Source: an uncultured Oscillibacter sp. (GTDB taxonomy: Bacteria; Bacillota_A; Clostridia; Oscillospirales; Oscillospiraceae). From it: DNA of 17,468 nt. The stretch is taken from contig CABQCB010000012.1 in assembly GCA_902462475.1 (NCBI GenBank), positions 1 to 17,468 on the forward strand. Direction: 5' to 3'. The notes below the pieces were generated by a model. The model worked only from the letters and a program-made list of their open reading frames with translations. It was not told the DNA's origin and did not search any database. The translations under genes were made by a program, and so were the position numbers. This document shows positions 2,311 to 9,653 of the stretch, piece after piece; position 1 is the first letter of the stretch; every line of letters begins with the position of its first letter.

Positions 2311-3510
2311 TCAGGTGTTCGGTTCCAGAGGCTGCACGGTAAAGTGCAGCTTTGCCGGGGAGTGAGGGTACTGGCGGAAAAAGGCCCGGACGATCCGGTC
2401 GCAGACCTTGCAGCTGTTTTCATAGTTGGCCTGGGGCAGCATGAGGATGTACTGGGACACACTGCACCGGGCGGCGATGTCGCCCCGGCGGAGGCTGGTG
2501 CGGATCAGCTCCTGCAGGTTTTCCATGCACCGGTCCAGGCTGCGCTTGGCCAGCTCCTCGCCGGCGGCGTCCGTGACGGAGAGCAGGCAGATGTGCACCG
2601 CGTCCCCGCTGCGGGCCACGGCACGGGCTTCGGCATGGTAAATGACCTTGAAAAAGTCATAGTCGCAGAAGAGAGCGCCGCTGAGACCGTCAGGCTCCCG
2701 CAGCTGCTCGCGCAGCGTGCCCATGGACACGGCCCGGTCATTGACCGTGCGCACGGCCTCCCGGTACAGCGCCCGGGACTCGTCCGCCGGCATGATGCCG
2801 AAGTTGTCGAACAGCAGCTGGCTCATGTCCTCATAGATGGAGATGACTTCCCGCTGCTGGCCCTGGGCCAGAAGATCCCGCATCAGATGCTGATAGATCA
2901 GCTCGTTGTAGGGCTCGATGGTGATGGCGCCGCGGCACAGTGCCGCGGCCTGGTCCATCTGATCCCGCTCTTCCAGCAAGGTGAGCGTCTCCAGCAGCGT
3001 GTGGATATAGAGATTGTGGAAATAGGCCGAAATGGGAATGACCCATGCCTCGCTGGAGAGCTTTTGCAAAAAGTCGCCCCGATACAGCTCCAGGGCCTGC
3101 AGATAATTCTCCAGCCGCTGGTCATCGCTTTGGGCCATGGCACCGGCGCGGCAGAGCCGCTCGAACTCGTCCACGTCAAAGAAGAACGGAACGTCCGGGT
3201 TCCAGGTGTAGTTTCCGTCCCGGCGGATGATGAGGGAGTGGCCGGCGGTACTGTCCAGCTGGTTGAGAGAAGAGCGCACCCGGTGGAACATGGTCTTGAG
3301 TGCGTTGAGGGGATTGGAGCTGCTCTCGCCGTCGCTCCACAAAAGACCCACCAGCTCGTCCTGGGTAATGGAGCGGCTGCGGCAATAGATCATGTACGCC
3401 AGCAGCAGCCATACTTTTCGGGAGCGGTTGTCGCTGTCATTGATCTCCTGGTCGCCTTTACGGACAGAAAAGTTGCCAAACATCCGCACTTCGAGGACAT
3501 GATCCGCCAT
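2311..3510 (-). CDS. BTAD/SARP-type transcriptional regulator with a divergent GGDEF-like C-terminal domain
   Basis: This 399-residue cytoplasmic regulator has three parts. Residues 1-105 form an OmpR/PhoB-like winged helix (VRMFGNFSV start, then RKVWLLLAYMIY, the ITQDELVGLLW recognition region, and a LNALKTMFHRVR helix). Residues 110-255 are all-helical and TPR-like, matching the bacterial transcriptional activation domain (YRGDFLQ..., CRGAITIEPYNELIYQHLM). Residues 270-399 look like a worn nucleotide-cyclase fold: the usual GGDEF loop is replaced by RCSVSQY (348-354), before a strand ILML and a helix. Catalysis is therefore unlikely, and a ligand-sensing or dimerising role is inferred. The start has GGTGGTG 8-15 nt upstream. 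It is divergent from the transglutaminase lipoprotein, a possible target. The true targets and signal cannot be read from sequence. Confidence 0.82.
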   Translation of the reverse strand: MADHVLEVRMFGNFSVRKGDQEINDSDNRSRKVWLLLAYMIYCRSRSITQDELVGLLWSDGESSSNPLNALKTMFHRVRSSLNQLDSTAGHSLIIRRDGNYTWNPDVPFFFDVDEFERLCRAGAMAQSDDQRLENYLQALELYRGDFLQKLSSEAWVIPISAYFHNLYIHTLLETLTLLEERDQMDQAAALCRGAITIEPYNELIYQHLMRDLLAQGQQREVISIYEDMSQLLFDNFGIMPADESRALYREAVRTVNDRAVSMGTLREQLREPDGLSGALFCDYDFFKVIYHAEARAVARSGDAVHICLLSVTDAAGEELAKRSLDRCMENLQELIRTSLRRGDIAARCSVSQYILMLPQANYENSCKVCDRIVRAFFRQYPHSPAKLHFTVQPLEPNT

Positions 3511-3738: not shown

Positions 3739-4761
3739 TTGCAGAAGTTTTTCAAGCGTATGCTGCCGCTGGTACTGGCAGTGTGCCTGCTGAGCGGCTG
3801 CGGTCAAAGCGGGGAGGAGCTCTCCGACGAGCAGGCCGAGGTCGATCTTACCCAGACGGAAGAGGTCGCTCCGGAGGAGGCCTACGTGGATGTGACCCCG
3901 CTGGACGAGGTGGAGCTGGAGGACGAGGCGGTGGCCCTGGCTGCCTCCCCTGCGCTGGACACCATGCTGGTGCCGGAGGCCTCCGGCACCCAGACTAAGG
4001 AGAACAGCAAGGCCGTCATTGACTACTCCAATACGAAAGACGGCTATGTGATGGTCAAGTATACCGCCTCCACCTCCAAGCGGCTCAAGGCCCAGCTCAA
4101 GGGCCCCACCACCACCTATACCTACAACATCACCGCCGGAAAGTGGGAGACGTTCCCCCTGTCTGACGGCAACGGCAGCTATCAGGTGACCGTCTACGAG
4201 AACATCTCCGGTTCCAAGTACTCCACCGTGCTCTCTGCCAGCTTTACCGCCTCCATGACGGATGAGTTCGCTCCCTTCCTGCGGCCCAACCAGTATGTGG
4301 ACTATGAAAATGCGCCCAATACGGTGGCCAAGGCCAAGGAGCTGACCGCCGGCATGACGGACCCGCTGCAGAAGGTGAAGGCAGTCTATGACTTCGTGGT
4401 CAACAACCTCACCTACGACAAGCAGCTGGCCGCCACGGTGCAAAGCGGATATCTGCCGGTACTGGACTCGGTTCTGGCCAGCAAGAAGGGCATCTGCTTC
4501 GACTATGCCGCATTGATGACCGGCATGCTCCGCAGCCAGGGCGTTCCCTGCAAGCTGGTCGTGGGCTATGCGGGCACCGCCTATCACGCCTGGATCAGTG
4601 TGTGGTCTGAGGAGACCGGATGGATCAACGGTGCCATCTATTTTGACGGCACCTCCTGGCAGCGGATGGACCCCACCTTTGCCTCCAGCGGACGGCAGAG
4701 CGCGGCCATCATGCAGTATATCGGCGACGGGAAAAACTACACCGCCAAATACTTCTACTAA
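3739..4761 (+). CDS. Transglutaminase-like (cysteine protease fold) surface lipoprotein
   Basis: This 340-residue protein is predicted to sit on the outer face of the membrane. Residues 1-21 form a lipoprotein signal peptide: charged start QKFFKR, a hydrophobic core, and lipobox LSGC with C21 as the lipidated residue. Residues 22-90 are an acidic linker. A beta-rich segment follows (about 85-175). The C-terminal part (about 190-340) is a transglutaminase-like domain with its triad visible: C253 in KKGICFDYAALM, H283 in YHAWISVW and D311 in RMDPTF. Such domains act as peptidases or amide cross-linkers on envelope proteins; the substrate here is unknown. It starts at TTG. It has its own promoter and terminator, so it is monocistronic, but lies just upstream of the pilus-like operon and divergent from the BTAD regulator. 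Confidence 0.88.
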   Translation: MQKFFKRMLPLVLAVCLLSGCGQSGEELSDEQAEVDLTQTEEVAPEEAYVDVTPLDEVELEDEAVALAASPALDTMLVPEASGTQTKENSKAVIDYSNTKDGYVMVKYTASTSKRLKAQLKGPTTTYTYNITAGKWETFPLSDGNGSYQVTVYENISGSKYSTVLSASFTASMTDEFAPFLRPNQYVDYENAPNTVAKAKELTAGMTDPLQKVKAVYDFVVNNLTYDKQLAATVQSGYLPVLDSVLASKKGICFDYAALMTGMLRSQGVPCKLVVGYAGTAYHAWISVWSEETGWINGAIYFDGTSWQRMDPTFASSGRQSAAIMQYIGDGKNYTAKYFY

Positions 4762-4774
4762 AGCGGATTTTGTC

Positions 4775-4803
4775 TTTACGAACCGGCGGAATTGGTTTAA
4801 AAT
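4775..4803 (+). promoter_or_regulatory. Possible promoter of the pilus-like operon, overlapping the terminator
   Basis: TTTACG (4775-4780), 17 bp, then TAAAAT (4798-4803). A start near 4810 would fall at the end of the terminator's left arm, so this RNA would lack most of that arm and could not fold the terminator. The match is moderate. It is the only reasonable promoter seen in the 92-nt gap. Confidence 0.4.
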
Positions 4804-4836
4804 GGGCTTGCGGTTGATCTGCAAGCCCATTTTTTT
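4798..4836 (+). terminator. Intrinsic terminator of the lipoprotein gene
   Basis: An 11-bp stem (4801-4811 with 4821-4831, loop GGTTGATCT) runs into a tract of seven T residues. It ends only 17 nt before the start codon of the next gene, so the downstream operon needs a promoter in or before this spot. Confidence 0.88.
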
Positions 4837-4853
4837 GGATTTGAGGACTGATA

Positions 4854-5897
4854 ATGAAAAACGAAAAACTGAGCAATGAGCAAATTTCGGGCCTTTGCAT
4901 GGAGCTTTCTTTGCTGCTGCACGCCGGCGTGCGGGCGGGAGACGGCCTGGCTCTTCTGGCGGAGGAGTCCCGGGGGGATGACCGGGCCTGGCTGGAGGAG
5001 ATGGCCCGGCAGGTGGACGACGGAGCGTCGCTGGCCGCAGCCCTGGGCGGCTCCGGCCGCTTTCCCGACTATGTCTCCGGCCTTTTGGAGATGGGGGAGC
5101 GCTCCGGCCGGACGGAGGAGGCCCTGCGGTCGCTGTCCGTCTATTATGAAGAACGCAGCCGGATGGAGCGGCGCCTGCGCAGCGCCCTTTTGTATCCGGC
5201 GGTGATGCTGCTTTTGATGCTGGCAGTGATCGTGATCCTGCTTGCCAAGGTGCTGCCGGTATTTGACGAGGTATATGCCTCCCTGGGTGGACAGCTCACC
5301 GGTGTGGCCGGCGGGCTTTTGTCCCTGGGCCGGGCGCTGGACGCGGCCATGCCGGTGCTGTGTGCACTGCTGGTGCTGATCGTGGCGTTTTTGGGGGCCT
5401 TTGCCGCCGTGCCCTCGTTCCGGGCGCGGATCATGGGCCTGTGGCGCCGTACCCGGGGGGACAAGGGCCTCTCCCGCATGATGTCCACTGCCCGCTTTGC
5501 CCAGGCGCTGGCCATGGGCCTTGGCAGCGGACTGCCTCTGGAGGAGGCGCTCGGTCTGGCCGGACAGCTGCAAAAGGACATTCCCACCGCCCAGGCCCGC
5601 TGCCAGGACTGCATGCAGCGGCTGGAGCGGGGCGAGGACCTGGCCGCCGCCATGAGCGCTTCCGGCGTGCTGCCCGGCGCCAGCTGCCGGCTGGTTGCAC
5701 TGGGCCAGCGCAGCGGCACGGGCGATACGGTCATGGAGGAAGTGGCCCGCCGGCTGAGCGAAGAGAGCGAGTACGCTTTGGAGGCCCGGGTGGGCCAGGT
5801 GGAGCCGGCACTGGTGCTGGTGACCTCCCTGCTGGTGGGTGCGATCCTGCTTTCCGTCATGCTGCCGCTGATGAACATCATGACGGCCATCGGGTGA
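4854..5897 (+). CDS. GspF/PilC-family inner-membrane platform protein
   Basis: This 347-residue protein is the membrane platform on which type II secretion and type IV pilus ATPases act. It shows the family's duplicated layout. A first helical cytoplasmic domain (about 10-110; LSLLLHAGVRAGDGL, LLEMGERSGRTEEAL) precedes membrane helices around 115-138 and 160-185. A second copy (about 205-315; FAQALAMGLGSGLPLEEAL, LVALGQRSGTGDTV) precedes a final membrane helix at 320-345 ending in PLMNIMTAIG. The paired LLxAGVxxxxxL and GExSGxxxxxL motifs are hallmarks of the family. Length is slightly below the usual 400 or so residues because the N-terminus is short. GAGG lies 7 nt before the ATG. It is the first gene of a tightly packed operon that also encodes PilT. 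Confidence 0.92.
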   Translation: MKNEKLSNEQISGLCMELSLLLHAGVRAGDGLALLAEESRGDDRAWLEEMARQVDDGASLAAALGGSGRFPDYVSGLLEMGERSGRTEEALRSLSVYYEERSRMERRLRSALLYPAVMLLLMLAVIVILLAKVLPVFDEVYASLGGQLTGVAGGLLSLGRALDAAMPVLCALLVLIVAFLGAFAAVPSFRARIMGLWRRTRGDKGLSRMMSTARFAQALAMGLGSGLPLEEALGLAGQLQKDIPTAQARCQDCMQRLERGEDLAAAMSASGVLPGASCRLVALGQRSGTGDTVMEEVARRLSEESEYALEARVGQVEPALVLVTSLLVGAILLSVMLPLMNIMTAIG

Positions 5898-5901
5898 GTG
5901 T

Positions 5902-6222
5902 ATGAGGCGGCAGAGACGTTGGCCCGCCCTTTTGGCCGGGCTGCTGGCCCCGGTGGTGTTCGCCGCCGGCGTGCTGGTATTTTTCACGGCGCTGAACCAT
6001 CTGGACAGCGGCCGGAAGACGGAGGGACGGACCCAGCTGGAGCAGTCGCTGCGCCGGGCGTCGGCGGCGTGCTACGCGGCCGAGGGGATCTACCCGCCGG
6101 ATCTTGCGTATTTGGAGGAGCACTACGGCGTGCAGGTGGATGAAGAGCGCTACACGGTGGATTACCGGGCGTTCGCCTCCAACCTGATGCCGGATATCAC
6201 AGTGCTGGAAAACGAGAAATGA
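5902..6222 (+). CDS. Small single-helix exported protein of the pilus-like operon
   Basis: This 106-residue protein is not a family I can name. Residues 1-8 are basic, residues 9-31 form one membrane helix, and the rest is polar and would lie outside the cell. The segment QLEQSLRRASAACYAAEGIYPPDLAYLEEHYGV (around residues 45-77) resembles the helix and YPxxLxxL loop of minor pseudopilins such as GspG. There is no G-x4-E cleavage motif at the N-terminus. The start at 5902 is 4 nt after the platform gene's stop, with GGGTGAG upstream overlapping that stop codon. Its place between pilC and pilT makes a pseudopilin-like structural role a reasonable inference. Confidence 0.7.
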   Translation: MRRQRRWPALLAGLLAPVVFAAGVLVFFTALNHLDSGRKTEGRTQLEQSLRRASAACYAAEGIYPPDLAYLEEHYGVQVDEERYTVDYRAFASNLMPDITVLENEK

Positions 6223-6722
6223 TGCGAAAAAAACCGGTTCAACACCATATGGAAGGGCTGCTGGTGCTGCTGCTGTTCGGTGTGTTCGCCGCCTGCATAT
6301 TGTCGGTGCTGCTGACGGGGGCGGGGCGCTACCGCGCCCTGACAGAGCGGGACGACGCGTCCTACTCCTGGCGCACTGCGGCTCAGTACCTGACCACCCG
6401 TATCCGCCAGGCGGATACAGCGGGCGGCGTGCACGTAGGCGCCTTTGACGGCGGCGAAGGGGAGGACACCCTCTTCCTCACCGAGCAGATCGACGGTGTG
6501 GCCTATACCACCCGGGTCTATTGGTATGACGGATCCCTGCGGGAGCTGTTTGCCGAGGAGGGCACAGAGCTGGACAAGGACGCCGGAGAGGCGGTGCTCT
6601 CCTCCGGCGGCGTGCGCTTTTTTGAGACGGACAGCGGCGTGAGCGCGGAGCTCACCGGCGCGGACGGGGAAGTCACCCGTCTGGATTGGACCCTCCGCAG
6701 CGGAGAGGGGGCGCCGTCATGA
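6219..6722 (+). CDS. Pseudopilin-like protein, possibly DUF4860
   Basis: This 167-residue protein has one N-terminal membrane helix (about 13-35), preceded by a charged start and HHMEG, and a beta-rich exterior domain. A glutamate sits at the head of the helix as in prepilins, but the glycine normally cleaved before it is missing (P6-V7 at that place). The exterior part (TLFLTEQIDGVAYTTRVYWY, LRELFAEEGTELD) resembles small Clostridia proteins labelled DUF4860 near pilus genes. That family assignment is from memory and uncertain. The gene overlaps the previous stop by 4 nt (ATGA), which points to coupled translation and fixed partnership. Confidence 0.72.
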   Translation: MMRKKPVQHHMEGLLVLLLFGVFAACILSVLLTGAGRYRALTERDDASYSWRTAAQYLTTRIRQADTAGGVHVGAFDGGEGEDTLFLTEQIDGVAYTTRVYWYDGSLRELFAEEGTELDKDAGEAVLSSGGVRFFETDSGVSAELTGADGEVTRLDWTLRSGEGAPS

Positions 6723-7147
6723 GAAGCAAGGCGCCTTTGGTGCTGATGGAGCAGCTGGTCATGGTGCTGGTGTTTGCCCTGGCGGCGGCGCTGTGCGTGC
6801 AGGTGTTCGTGCTCTCGGACCAGACCTCCCGGAGCCATGAGGCCCGGGACCGGGCCGTAGTGGCCGCCCAGAACGCTGCCGAGAACCTCAAGGGCTGCGG
6901 AGGCGATTATGCCGCCGCGGCAGAGCGCTGGGGCGGAGACTGGAACGGCTCCATGTGGGGCATTTCCTACGACGAGGCCTGGCAGGTGTGCCAAGACCAG
7001 AGCCAGGCGGCCTACCATGTGCTGGTGACGCCGGCGGAAAGCGGCCGGGACTTGCTGGGGCAGGCCCAGGTGACGGTGTATACGGCGGAGGGAGACGTGC
7101 TGTTCTCCATCCCCGTGGCCTGGCAGGAGGTGACGGACGTTGGGTGA
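6719..7147 (+). CDS. Pseudopilin-like protein with a non-canonical prepilin signal
   Basis: This 142-residue protein starts at ATG 6719, which overlaps the previous stop as ATGA and has GGAGAGGGGG just upstream. A longer reading from 6686 is less likely. Its N-terminus, MRSKAPLVLMEQLVMVLVF, mimics a type IV prepilin leader: short and basic, then a hydrophobic helix with glutamate (E11) at its head. However, alanine-proline replaces the glycine before the cleavage site. The helix spans roughly 12-34. The remainder is soluble and has a repeated VTVYTAEGDVLFSIPV strand pattern near the end. It is probably a minor subunit of the same pilus-like structure. Cleavage by a standard prepilin peptidase is doubtful. 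Confidence 0.75.
   Translation: MRSKAPLVLMEQLVMVLVFALAAALCVQVFVLSDQTSRSHEARDRAVVAAQNAAENLKGCGGDYAAAAERWGGDWNGSMWGISYDEAWQVCQDQSQAAYHVLVTPAESGRDLLGQAQVTVYTAEGDVLFSIPVAWQEVTDVG
7125..7133 (+). promoter_or_regulatory. Strong ribosome binding site fixing a TTG start inside the upstream gene
   Basis: AGGAGGTGA lies 6 nt before TTG at 7140. It sits within the end of the preceding gene, so the next protein starts at TTG and overlaps its neighbour by 8 nt. Confidence 0.8.
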
Positions 7148-7553
7148 AAAAGAGCGGTTTTCCCCGCCTGCCGTAGGCGGAAGTTCTCTGCTGGTCATCT
7201 TTGCCGTGCTGTGCCTGACGGTGTTCGCCCTGCTGGGCCTTTCCAGTGTGCAGGCCAGCGGCCGGCTCTCCGACGCGTCGGCCCAGGCCGTTTCCGCTTA
7301 CTATACGGCCGACTGCCAGGCGGAGGAGATCCTCTCGGCCCTGCGGCAGGGCGAGGTCCCGGAGGGCGTGCGGCAGGAAGAGAACGGCGTGTACGCCTAT
7401 ACCTGCCCCATTTCCGACACCCAGGCCCTGGAGGTGCGCGTGCGCGTGGACGGCGGGACGTGGACGGTGCTTCGCTGGCAGGCGGTGTCCACCGCCCAGT
7501 GGGAGGCGGACGAGAGTCTGGATCTTTGGGACGGCGGCGTCCCTATGAATTGA
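7140..7553 (+). CDS. Small single-helix protein of the pilus-like operon (PilX/GspK-like topology)
   Basis: This 137-residue protein uses a TTG start backed by a near-perfect ribosome site. After a short polar head, GGSSLLVIFAVLCLTVFALLGL (residues 13-34) forms one membrane helix. Its layout and the following alanine/serine-rich helix (SDASAQAVSAYYTADCQAEEIL) recall the N-terminus of minor pilins PilX and GspK, which often lack a full cleavage motif. The family is not recognised with confidence. The exterior domain is small and beta-rich (YAYTCPISDTQALEVRVRV). It overlaps the previous gene by 8 nt and precedes pilT by 18 nt. Confidence 0.7.
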   Translation: MGEKERFSPPAVGGSSLLVIFAVLCLTVFALLGLSSVQASGRLSDASAQAVSAYYTADCQAEEILSALRQGEVPEGVRQEENGVYAYTCPISDTQALEVRVRVDGGTWTVLRWQAVSTAQWEADESLDLWDGGVPMN

Positions 7554-7571
7554 GTCAAAGGAGCGATTCCC

Positions 7572-8630
7572 ATGCGTGAATTGTTGGATATTTTGGAACA
7601 GGCGGTGCAGGACCGTGCATCCGACCTTTTTATCGTGGCAGGCGGCCCGGTCAGCGAAAAGCGGGACGGGCGCATCATGCCCATCAGCGGCGAGAAGGTG
7701 TTCCCCGGTGAGACGGAGCGGCTGATCGCCGGCCTTTATGACCTGGCGGACCGGTCCATGGAGCGCTACCGCCAGACCGGCGACGACGATTTCTCCTTCG
7801 CGGTATCGGGCCTTGCCCGCTTCCGGGTCAACGCCTATCAGCAGCGCGGCTCTCTGGCTGCCGTGGTGCGCGTGGTGGCGTTCGAGATCCCGGACCACAC
7901 CGCGCTGCACATTCCCGACGCCGTCATGGACCTGGCGGACGTGTCCCACGGCATGGTGCTGGTCACCGGCACCGCCGGCAGCGGCAAATCTACCACCCAG
8001 GCGTGCATCATCGACCGGATCAACCGCACCCGGCAGGCCCATATCATCACGCTGGAGGACCCCATCGAATACCTCCACCGGGACCAGAAGAGCATCGTCA
8101 GCCAGCGGGAGATCGCCATCGATACCACGGATTATCTCTCCGCCCTGCGGGCCTGTCTGCGCCAGGCGCCGGACGTGATCTTGCTGGGAGAGATGCGGGA
8201 CCATGAGACCATCCGCACCGCCATGACCGCGGCGGAGACGGGCCACCTGCTCATCGCAACGCTCCACACCAACGGGGCGGTGAACACCATCGACCGCATC
8301 ATCGACTCCTTCCCCAGCACCCAGCAGTCCCAGATCCGGGTCCAGCTGAGCATGGTGCTGCACACGGTGGTTTCTCAGCGGCTGCTGCCCGACAAGCGGG
8401 GCGGCATGATCCCCGCCTGCGAGATCATGCACATGACGCCCGCCATCCGCAGCATGATCCGCGACTGCAAGAACCACCAGATCGACAATGCCATCGCAGC
8501 CGGCGGCGCGGAGGGCATGTGCTCCATGGATCAGTCCATTCTGGAGCTCTACCGCAAGGACTTCATCACCCGGGAGACGGCGCTGGATTATGCCGACAAT
8601 CCCGAGCAGATGCTCCGCCGCATGGGATAA
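7572..8630 (+). CDS. pilT: PilT-family type IV pilus ATPase
   Basis: This 352-residue cytoplasmic hexameric ATPase pulls pilin subunits back into the membrane. The N-terminal domain (about 1-100) starts MRELLDILEQAVQDRASDLFI, the usual PilT opening. The motor domain has Walker A GTAGSGKST (133-141), the Asp box (ITLEDPIEYLH), Walker B with catalytic E207 (VILLGEMRD) and the His box (GHLLIATLHT, 224-233). Near the end it keeps AIRSMIRD (291-298), the PilT-specific version of the AIRNLIRE motif needed for retraction. Length matches PilT and is far shorter than the extension ATPase PilB. AAAGGAG lies 8 nt before the ATG. No PilB-type extension motor is in the window, so one must come from elsewhere or PilT powers both directions. 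Confidence 0.95.
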   Translation: MRELLDILEQAVQDRASDLFIVAGGPVSEKRDGRIMPISGEKVFPGETERLIAGLYDLADRSMERYRQTGDDDFSFAVSGLARFRVNAYQQRGSLAAVVRVVAFEIPDHTALHIPDAVMDLADVSHGMVLVTGTAGSGKSTTQACIIDRINRTRQAHIITLEDPIEYLHRDQKSIVSQREIAIDTTDYLSALRACLRQAPDVILLGEMRDHETIRTAMTAAETGHLLIATLHTNGAVNTIDRIIDSFPSTQQSQIRVQLSMVLHTVVSQRLLPDKRGGMIPACEIMHMTPAIRSMIRDCKNHQIDNAIAAGGAEGMCSMDQSILELYRKDFITRETALDYADNPEQMLRRMG

Positions 8631-8636
8631 GACGAT

Positions 8637-9653
8637 ATGAAGAAAAAAGTAAGGCTTGGGATCATGGCGGTGCTGGCCATCGTGCTGGTGGTCAGCGCGG
8701 TCATGCTGATCCGCCAGCAGATGGAATACCGCCGGGGCGAGGAGATCTACCAGGAGGCTGAGGCGCTGGTGGAGCTGCCGGACCTGAGCGACCTGCCCGC
8801 GCCGGAGGTCCAGGAACCGGAGGGAGAGACGGAGCAGGAGGAAAAGCCGGTCTATGTGGACCCCTATGCCGACGCCCTGCGGAATATGGACTTCACCGCG
8901 CTGCGGGAGGTCAACGACGATGTGCTGGGCTGGATCCTCATTCCCAACACCGTGATTTCCTACCCGCTGGTGCAGGGAGACGACAACGAATACTACCTCA
9001 ACCACACCTGGAAAAAGTGGACCAGCGTGGTGGGCGCCATTTTCATGGAGAGCGCCAACAGCCCGGATCTCAGCAATTTCAATACCATTATCTACGGACA
9101 CCGGATGAACAACGGCTCCATGTTCGCCTCGCTGAAGTACTATAAGACCCTCAGCTACTGGCAGTCCCACCCCTATGTCTACATCACCAACGACGCCGGG
9201 AGCCACCAGTACGAGATCTTCGCGGCCTATGAGGTCAGCACGGCGGGCGAGACTTACCGCCTTCAGTTTGCGGACACCCAGGCCCGCCAGGATTTCATTG
9301 ACTACTGCCTGGAACAGTCCGTCATCGACACGGGCGTGGTGCCCAACACCTACGACCGGATCTTGACCCTCTCCACCTGCACCGGCAACGGCCACGCCAC
9401 CCGCTGGGTGGTGCAGGCGGTGCTGCGGGGCGAGGCCCCGTCGGACACGGCGGAGCAGGAGCCGGAGGCATCCCAGGAGCCGGAGACTGTTCCTGAAACT
9501 CCCGAAACTCCTGAGACCGGGGAGACGCCGGAAACCCAGGCGCCCCAGGAGACGGAAGAGGGCTCGTCTTTGCTGGACATCGCCCTGGGCAGCGTCACCG
9601 GCGGCTCTGCGGAGGACGAAACACAGGCGGACGATACACCGCCCGCCCAGTGA
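8637..9653 (+). CDS. srtB: Class B sortase with a Pro/Glu/Thr-rich C-terminal tail
   Basis: This 338-residue membrane-anchored transpeptidase is predicted to join surface proteins to the cell wall. Residues 5-27 form the membrane anchor, followed by an acidic, proline-rich spacer to about 78. The catalytic domain (about 80-265) shows class B signatures: VLGWILIPNTVISYPLVQG, DDNEYYLNHTWKKW and AIFMESANS. All three catalytic residues are present: H155 in YGHRM, C248 in LSTC and R256 in ATRWVV. Residues 270-338 are an unusual low-complexity tail with PET repeats and a TPETG string; class B sortases normally end soon after the catalytic arginine. The gene begins only 6 nt after pilT, so it belongs to the pilus-like operon. 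Its substrate is not identifiable in this window. Confidence 0.93.
   Translation: MKKKVRLGIMAVLAIVLVVSAVMLIRQQMEYRRGEEIYQEAEALVELPDLSDLPAPEVQEPEGETEQEEKPVYVDPYADALRNMDFTALREVNDDVLGWILIPNTVISYPLVQGDDNEYYLNHTWKKWTSVVGAIFMESANSPDLSNFNTIIYGHRMNNGSMFASLKYYKTLSYWQSHPYVYITNDAGSHQYEIFAAYEVSTAGETYRLQFADTQARQDFIDYCLEQSVIDTGVVPNTYDRILTLSTCTGNGHATRWVVQAVLRGEAPSDTAEQEPEASQEPETVPETPETPETGETPETQAPQETEEGSSLLDIALGSVTGGSAEDETQADDTPPAQ

Follow-up and report, generated by a model that had tools for sequence, protein, structure and literature searches.

A conserved operon of pilus parts with PilT as its apparent only motor in Oscillibacter and its relatives

Gene content of the operon

We analysed a 17,468-nucleotide (nt) stretch of DNA from an uncultured Oscillibacter sp. 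(contig CABQCB010000012.1, henceforth the window), in which positions 4854-9653 of the plus strand hold a tight operon of seven genes in the order PilC-O3-O4-O5-O6-PilT-sortase, O3 to O6 being four small proteins with pilin-like features. The genes are separated by gaps of 4, 18 and 6 nt or overlap by 4, 4 and 8 nt, in agreement with a preliminary description of this DNA, made from its letters alone, which had reported seven one-strand genes with gaps of 4-18 nt and overlaps of 4-8 nt. The genes and features discussed below are the following.

2311..3510, minus strand: BTAD-domain regulator (PF03704, E 5.3e-20), divergent from the transglutaminase gene; a candidate regulator outside the core
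3739..4761, plus strand: transglutaminase-like lipoprotein (PF01841, E 1.4e-24) with lipobox LLSGC and triad C253/H283/D311
4799..4833, plus strand: intrinsic terminator-like hairpin of 15 pairs followed by a T-run, between the transglutaminase gene and PilC
4854..5897, plus strand: PilC/GspF platform protein with a short N-terminus (PF00482, E 1.2e-41)
5902..6222, plus strand: O3, small pilin-like protein, likely of G/H type (weak; family hidden Markov model (HMM) against a canonical pilin)
6219..6722, plus strand: O4 (DUF4860), by predicted fold a GspJ-like minor pilin, without the Gly-1/Glu+5 motif
6719..7147, plus strand: O5, by predicted fold a GspI-like minor pilin; leader MRSKAP with Pro at -1, Leu at +1 and Glu at +5
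7140..7553, plus strand: O6, weakly assigned as GspK/PilX/ComGG-like (TTG start; ComGG E 0.038)
7572..8630, plus strand: PilT-family ATPase, apparently the only motor (TIGR01420, 412.9 bits)
8637..9653, plus strand: class B sortase, a facultative neighbour (TIGR03064, 180.6 bits, over the cut-off of 153.75)

The platform protein covers profile positions 57-400 of the 401 of TIGR02120, with a score below that model's cut-off, while the ATPase lies within the PilT/PilU family (TIGR01420 cut-off 319.1 bits) and a 79-row alignment shows conservation of its Walker A, Walker B, His box and AIRNLIRE-like motifs. The GspF/PilC platform and the PilT with intact motifs named in the preliminary description therefore stand, as do the absences that it listed: the 19 window proteins scanned gave no Pfam match to PilB, to the prepilin peptidase PilD or to PilM/N/O, and no operon protein has a G-F-x3-E leader. 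Secretin and GspL/M likewise had no match within the window. All eight genes (the transglutaminase-like enzyme and the sortase included) are under purifying selection, with ratios of non-synonymous to synonymous substitution rates (dN/dS) of ~0.16-0.42 against locus L034. The best DUF4860 relative, 93% identical, is named Dysosmobacter sp., which fits the Oscillospiraceae guessed in the preliminary description.

Conservation of the core among relatives

When public genomes were scanned with an alignment of DUF4860, 119 places were confirmed, and 80 of these were kept as loci. Many carry record titles of Oscillibacter, Dysosmobacter, Lawsonibacter, Flavonifractor, Flintibacter, Colidextribacter or Oscillospiraceae; the remaining ones, mostly metagenome-assembled genomes (MAGs), are labelled, as deposited, Clostridia, Lachnospiraceae, Peptostreptococcaceae or Peptococcaceae. 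In 77/80 loci all six core genes are present in the order PilC-O3-O4-O5-O6-PilT. Two of the other three (L005 and L061) meet a contig end, and in L069 PilC is split and PilT was missed by the frame filter because of a run of N; this PilT is present by tblastn, and we kept the count of 77/80 as first computed. Within L069 (8477-13305), PilC and the sortase are each split across frames and the locus contains 300 N, which may reflect draft errors, with PilT intact by tblastn. Among 300 genomes drawn from the family, 78 were positive for DUF4860 (PF16152).

We also hand-picked 18 order-level loci from 70 matching genomes, favouring larger contigs. PilC-O3-O4-O5-O6 was found in all 18, PilT in 16 and the transglutaminase gene in 14, and none of the 18 had a PilB or PilD HMM match within the fetched stretch. 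Two related ones, L098 (4312-6966) and L100 (5504-8266), have PilC and four pilin-like genes without PilT or a transglutaminase-like gene, and no T2SSE match at E<=1e-10 was obtained in the genome of L100 (G336). If these are not assembly gaps, the pilin-platform part can outlive the motor. Judged by sequence, the operon is a conserved, putative mini-machine made from pilus parts and carried by many Oscillospiraceae.

Pilin-like subunits and their leaders

The preliminary description had called O3-O6 odd single-helix proteins, and this gives way for at least O4 and O5, whose predicted structures have the pilin fold: O4 matches GspJ-type entries and O5 GspI-type entries. These fold calls are based on a VIA second look and on sequence profiles, the Foldseek E-values being poor (0.077 at best for O4; for O5 the best row, at 0.11, is an unrelated phage chain), and chain letter and length were part of the basis for assigning the matched complex chains to I or J (the title of 3nje_A names XcpW). 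The predicted identity of O4 (J-like) and O5 (I-like) as pilins is well supported, while the assignment of O3 as G/H-like and of O6 as K-like is weaker and comes from profile comparisons. The family HMMs of O3, O4 and O5 all match canonical pilins at L081 (for O3, E 6e-5), and hhalign gave 17% for O3. When 25 members of each family were scanned against Pfam, O3 matched no pilin family, O5 matched no curated pilin family except for a single Tt1218 match, and O6 matched PilX_N alone, weakly (4/25, best E 0.016). Aligning O6 with K-type canonical pilins by hhalign failed, at only 6%, and a PDB sequence search with the O3, O5 and O6 profiles returned nothing convincing (for O5, one type IV major pilin at E 1.3). 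L081 (2575-16295) is itself a canonical pilus locus, and its J-type pilin weakly matches DUF4860 (PF16152 E 8.4e-6, family HMM 1.1e-5), which we take as a sign of common descent.

We then considered the residues around the expected cleavage site. Across 81 O5 sequences, Leu+1 and Glu+5 are present in all 81, whereas position -1 is Pro in 79 and Gly in none. Within the window family, Glu+5 occurs in O5 only among O3-O6, and no subunit combines Gly-1 with Glu+5, that is, none has a class III leader. By comparison, Gly-1 and Glu+5 are invariant in the canonical J-, I- and G/H-type pilins of relatives' pilus loci (n=4, 4 and 8, respectively; these sets and their K, J, I and G/H labels were chosen by position and by eye). 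O5 has Pro at -1 even in 8/9 loci (eight genomes) that also have PilB and an A24 peptidase. In the order-level loci Glu+5 is again universal (18/18), with Gly at -1 in five and S, R, T, N, Q or L in the others, and Gly-1 had no clear link to A24 in this set: A24 was matched at E<=0.001 in 4/5 Gly-1 loci versus 9/13 others (counting matches below the cut-off in G612 of the Gly-1 group and in G606 of the others). O5 thus holds Glu+5, whereas the residue on which cutting depends is variable. According to a review of the superfamily (PMC10191384), the partner of Glu5 in known filaments is the free N-terminal amine of a neighbouring subunit; if the leader stays on, Glu+5 of O5 would need another partner.

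Cysteines are a further conserved feature of these proteins. One lies inside the N-terminal helix at residue 26 of both O4 and O5 (81/81 each), another at position 57 of O3 (81/81) and another at position 25 of O6 (73/80). The membrane Cys of O4 and O5 was considered as a lipobox and rejected by eye.

Placement of the PilT motor

In a tree of 40 selected ATPase rows, the 23 operon PilTs group with two solo PilTs (100/99). This clade falls on the PilT side (96/91) and excludes the nine canonical PilTs as well as the PilBs. The operon ATPase reaches 125.1 bits against ComGA, where the cut-off is 300. The two solo PilTs (L091:4722-5789 and L092:4792-5862) stand beside capsule or wall-polymer genes (LytR-CpsA-Psr, CpsB, a CpsD-like ATPase and Wzz), and a frame near the L092 gene matches the sortase HMM but no Pfam family at 1e-5.

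Extension ATPases and prepilin peptidases in relatives' genomes

Genome-wide absence was assessed in relatives, using 102 DUF4860-positive genomes: 30 hand-picked from the 80 loci, with named strains and long contigs favoured, and 72 that comprise the 78 PF16152-positive genomes of the family sample minus 6 already in the 30. T2SSE ATPases were counted at E<=1e-10, and A24 peptidases were probed with PF01478. Almost all genomes fell into two states, with one T2SSE ATPase and no A24 (henceforth bare) in 49/102, and at least two ATPases together with A24 in 46/102 (Fisher p 2e-21 for the association of ATPase number and A24). The exceptions were three genomes with at least two ATPases and no A24, three with one ATPase and A24, and one with neither. 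Overall, exactly one T2SSE match was found in 52/102 genomes, and a PF01478 match was present in 49 and absent in 53. In G108 and G210, which have an extra ATPase and no A24, the extra one is a second PilT of the operon clade. Three of the 49 (G010, G011 and G019) have a further weak T2SSE match over the Pfam cut-off that was left uncounted; at least one of the 72 (G061) matches DUF4860 via a canonical J-type pilin, and G077 (1.2 Mb) has no ATPase match.

Of the 33 single-ATPase genomes in the 72-genome set, 32 have this ATPase and DUF4860 on the same contig, and all 19 single-ATPase genomes of the 30-genome set have exactly one platform protein (E<=1e-6). Canonical N_methyl pilins occurred in the latter set in exactly the 8 genomes that have a PilB-size ATPase. 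The PF01478 control missed Lactococcus lactis, so that this probe used singly can miss a case; PF06750 (the A24 N-terminal domain), which found it, matched 7/30 genomes and 0/18 bare ones, meaning that both probes agree on the absence of A24 from the 18 bare genomes of this set. Bare genomes include strain-titled assemblies rather than MAGs alone (L003, L021, L024, L039, L060 and L077), among them Flintibacter muris DSM 110149 (L060). By contrast, A24 and several ATPases were found for L012, L057, L063 and L074 (three strain-titled assemblies and the complete O. valericigenes genome), and in the strain-titled L040 a single ATPase is accompanied by one A24 match. Bare genomes are less frequent at the order level, where 4/18 genomes have one ATPase and no A24 and 12/18 have several ATPases and A24; in G606 one ATPase goes with an A24 match below the cut-off, and G336 has neither. 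A PilB-size ATPase was found in 11 of these 18 genomes.

By these profile matches, about half of the family-level relatives encode no other T2SSE-family ATPase and no prepilin peptidase, and the presence of A24 overall appears to track other pilus or Tad-type ATPases and not the DUF4860 operon. The preliminary description had offered two options, a compact machine driven by PilT alone or an accessory set that borrows parts encoded elsewhere. The relatives favour the former, and the 49 bare genomes mean that borrowing fails as a general account, with N_methyl pilins restricted to the 8/30 genomes that have a PilB-size ATPase.

Neighbours of the core

A transglutaminase-like gene lies directly 5' of PilC in 70/76 loci and just 3' of PilT in two further ones (L022, on the other strand, and L073). 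The Cys-His-Asp triad of its product is invariant in 75/75 rows, and the lipobox Cys is present in 54/75. The usual neighbour of the core is this transglutaminase-like lipoprotein, not the sortase. A class B sortase adjoins PilT (3', within 2.5 kb) in 13/68 loci; L029 and L069 also have a sortase after PilT and stand outside this count. Within the 30-genome set, a class B sortase (TIGR03064) is matched somewhere in 28 genomes, in 24 of them over the cut-off. Since it is adjacent in 13/68 loci but matched in 28/30 genomes, the sortase is a frequent companion and no part of the fixed unit, although its linkage to the operon may be above chance. Only two gene clusters 3' of PilT reached at least 4 loci, namely the sortase (11) and a 153-aa frame (7), as counted by the longest-frame method.

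The fixed sortase link of the preliminary description is thus lost, and the relatives with an unlinked sortase, which it had said would speak against its proposal, do exist and touch the sortase part only. The comparison across Oscillospiraceae that it proposed leaves the core ordered and replaces the fixed partner by the transglutaminase-like gene, which lay outside the region that it had delimited.

Terminator-like hairpins recur in the equivalent transglutaminase-PilC spacers of 24/71 relatives, as against 0/355 shuffles, so that the transglutaminase gene and the core may be two separate transcripts. A promoter-like site at 4775-4803 (9 of 12) touches the hairpin of the window. A BTAD regulator holds the same divergent position in 25/65 loci with room for it, and at L110 a frame beyond PilT resembles the BTAD regulator by eye.

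Comparison with known systems

With respect to the type IV filament superfamily, the operon has a platform protein (PilC/GspF) and pilin-fold subunits (O4 and O5), while a class III leader was not found on the subunits of the window family, nor an extension ATPase of PilB/GspE/ComGA type or an A24 peptidase among the window proteins scanned. The operon is related to type IV filaments by descent, yet lacks three of their defining features as tested.

Each of the known systems resembles the operon in part. Type II secretion (GspH-I-J-K; XcpVWX, EpsIJ, GspIJK) shares the GspJ/GspI-type folds and four small genes beside a GspF-like platform, but the operon has no GspE/PilB-type ATPase, no Gly-1 site in the window family and no major subunit with Glu+5, and its motor is of PilT type. 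The Com pilus of monoderms (ComGA-GG, ComC) is similar in having one ATPase, one platform, few small pilins and no PilMNO; however, Com is described as having kept the extension ATPase and prepilin peptidase and lost PilT (PMC10191384), the reverse of the operon, and O3-O6 had no ComGC match among the matches listed, just as the ComGA score remained below the cut-off. A type IVa pilus (PilB, PilT, PilC, PilD, PilMNO) likewise has a PilT of TIGR01420 and PilC, and the O3, O4 and O5 HMMs match the pilins of L081, but the operon and its surroundings have no PilB, PilD or canonical pilin, nor is the PilMNO sub-complex matched in Pfam among the window proteins. The Tad (T4c) pilus also uses one ATPase (CpaF) for all work, but CpaF is a distant ATPase (one tree row, on a very long branch), and Tad, unlike the operon, has the TadV peptidase and two platform proteins according to the accounts consulted (PMC10191384, PMC6668835). 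Finally, archaeal type IV pilus loci are linked with transglutaminase-family surface peptidases, whose role is given as unknown (PMC4858521), a likeness to the enzyme found here; unlike the operon, archaeal pili have other secretion ATPases and A24 peptidases, and the same source states that the PilT ATPase family is not encoded by archaea.

A 2023 review lists pilins, prepilin peptidase, extension ATPase and platform as the only parts found in every type IV filament system (PMC10191384), and Denise et al., in their treatment of the families, take assembly by PilB as essential in all of them (PMC6668835). In the survey of Gram-positive pil, tad and com operons by Imam et al., tad-like loci with no apparent prepilin motif still have tadV (PMC3244431). 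Within the open-access literature searched we found no paper that names DUF4860, none in which PilT and type IV pili are linked to Oscillibacter or Oscillospirales, and none that combines three of the four terms type IV pili, class B sortase, PilT and Oscillospiraceae.

Discussion

Sequence, predicted fold and comparison together establish a parts list (a platform, one PilT, O3-O6 and a lipoprotein with an intact triad) with no canonical prepilin peptidase site in the window set. Apparently, PilT powers a system that has a single platform and pilin-like proteins left uncut, and that lacks two of the four 'core' type IV filament parts. The reading that we somewhat favour is a reduced type IV filament machine, in which PilT and PilC move an uncleaved pseudopilus tip that works with a surface transglutaminase-like enzyme. 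O3-O6 would stay uncleaved in the membrane and therefore would not polymerise into a long pilus; they would instead sit on PilC as a pseudopilus tip, resembling the I-J-K-type complex that starts filaments elsewhere. ATP hydrolysis by PilT would turn PilC and so move the stub or change its conformation, the stub acting as a piston that crosses the membrane and reaches into the thick wall. Its outward end would cooperate with the lipoprotein enzyme, a peptidase or a cross-linker, in processing or positioning surface or wall proteins, with sortase B joining in some lineages.

The main rival to this tip-stub model is a short pseudopilus assembled by PilT from uncut subunits, where PilT would be a two-way or reversed motor building a real short pseudopilus or pilus, O3 the major subunit and uncleaved leaders tolerated, as in a Com-like system with a PilT-type motor. 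We consider it unlikely but worth serious attention, given that Com systems are described as managing with a platform and an ATPase alone in the membrane (PMC10191384), that extension and retraction of Tad pili are reported to be driven by a single ATPase (PMC11300603), that Glu+5 of O5 is retained in 81/81 sequences and that the O3 HMM matches a canonical pilin. On the other hand, no subunit of the window family combines Gly-1 and Glu+5, the sole candidate for a major subunit, O3, has no Glu+5, and the prepilin peptidase is counted in every type IV filament system by the review cited above (PMC10191384). Another possibility is that a protease other than A24, for example the transglutaminase-like enzyme, cuts the pilins, which then assemble normally. 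That enzyme is the usual neighbour and its triad is invariant, and Makarova et al. suggest that archaeal peptidases of this kind may further process or degrade pilins (PMC4858521); even so, we hold this to be improbable, as the order-level loci, with G, S, R, T, N, Q or L at -1, share no new motif there. The expected topology also stands against it. A pilin leader should face the cytoplasm and the lipoprotein the outside, so that the two are expected on opposite sides of the membrane.

That the operon is instead an accessory module of a canonical type IV pilus encoded elsewhere, borrowing its PilB and PilD, would fit the 46/102 genomes with at least two ATPases and A24 and the PilB-size ATPase in 11/18 order-level genomes. 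As a general rule it is already refuted by the relatives' genomes, 49/102 of which have neither part (six strain-titled assemblies included), and it is made very improbable by O5, which keeps Pro-1 in 8/9 loci even with PilD present, and by the separate clade of the operon PilTs. The loss of PilB, PilD and the leader glycine, and of PilT as well at L098 and L100, could also be read as the decay of a functionless pilus remnant. We give this hardly any credence, considering the ordered core in 77/80 loci, the conserved PilT motifs and enzyme triad, the dN/dS of ~0.16-0.42 and the presence of DUF4860 in 78/300 family genomes.

Returning to the tip-stub model, its broader form is a separate, order-wide class of machines derived from type IV filaments. 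These would be rotary or piston actuators driven by PilT only, without a filament, an assembly ATPase or prepilin processing, in which an uncleaved minor-pilin tip sits on PilC and is coupled with a transglutaminase-like enzyme on the outside of the membrane. We regard this as plausible, if not quite an even chance. Two of the four 'universal' type IV filament parts are missing from about half of the 102 genomes that carry the system, and a PilT-only class, if true, would be contrary to the rule that every such system has pilins, a prepilin peptidase, an extension ATPase and a platform. The case opens to test what a motor of PilT and PilC can do with an I-J-type pilin complex when no filament is assembled, and why Glu+5 persists when the leader residue for cutting does not. 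DUF4860 gains a likely fold and role, and a bacterial case is added to the unexplained link between type IV pili and the transglutaminase family described in archaea (PMC4858521).

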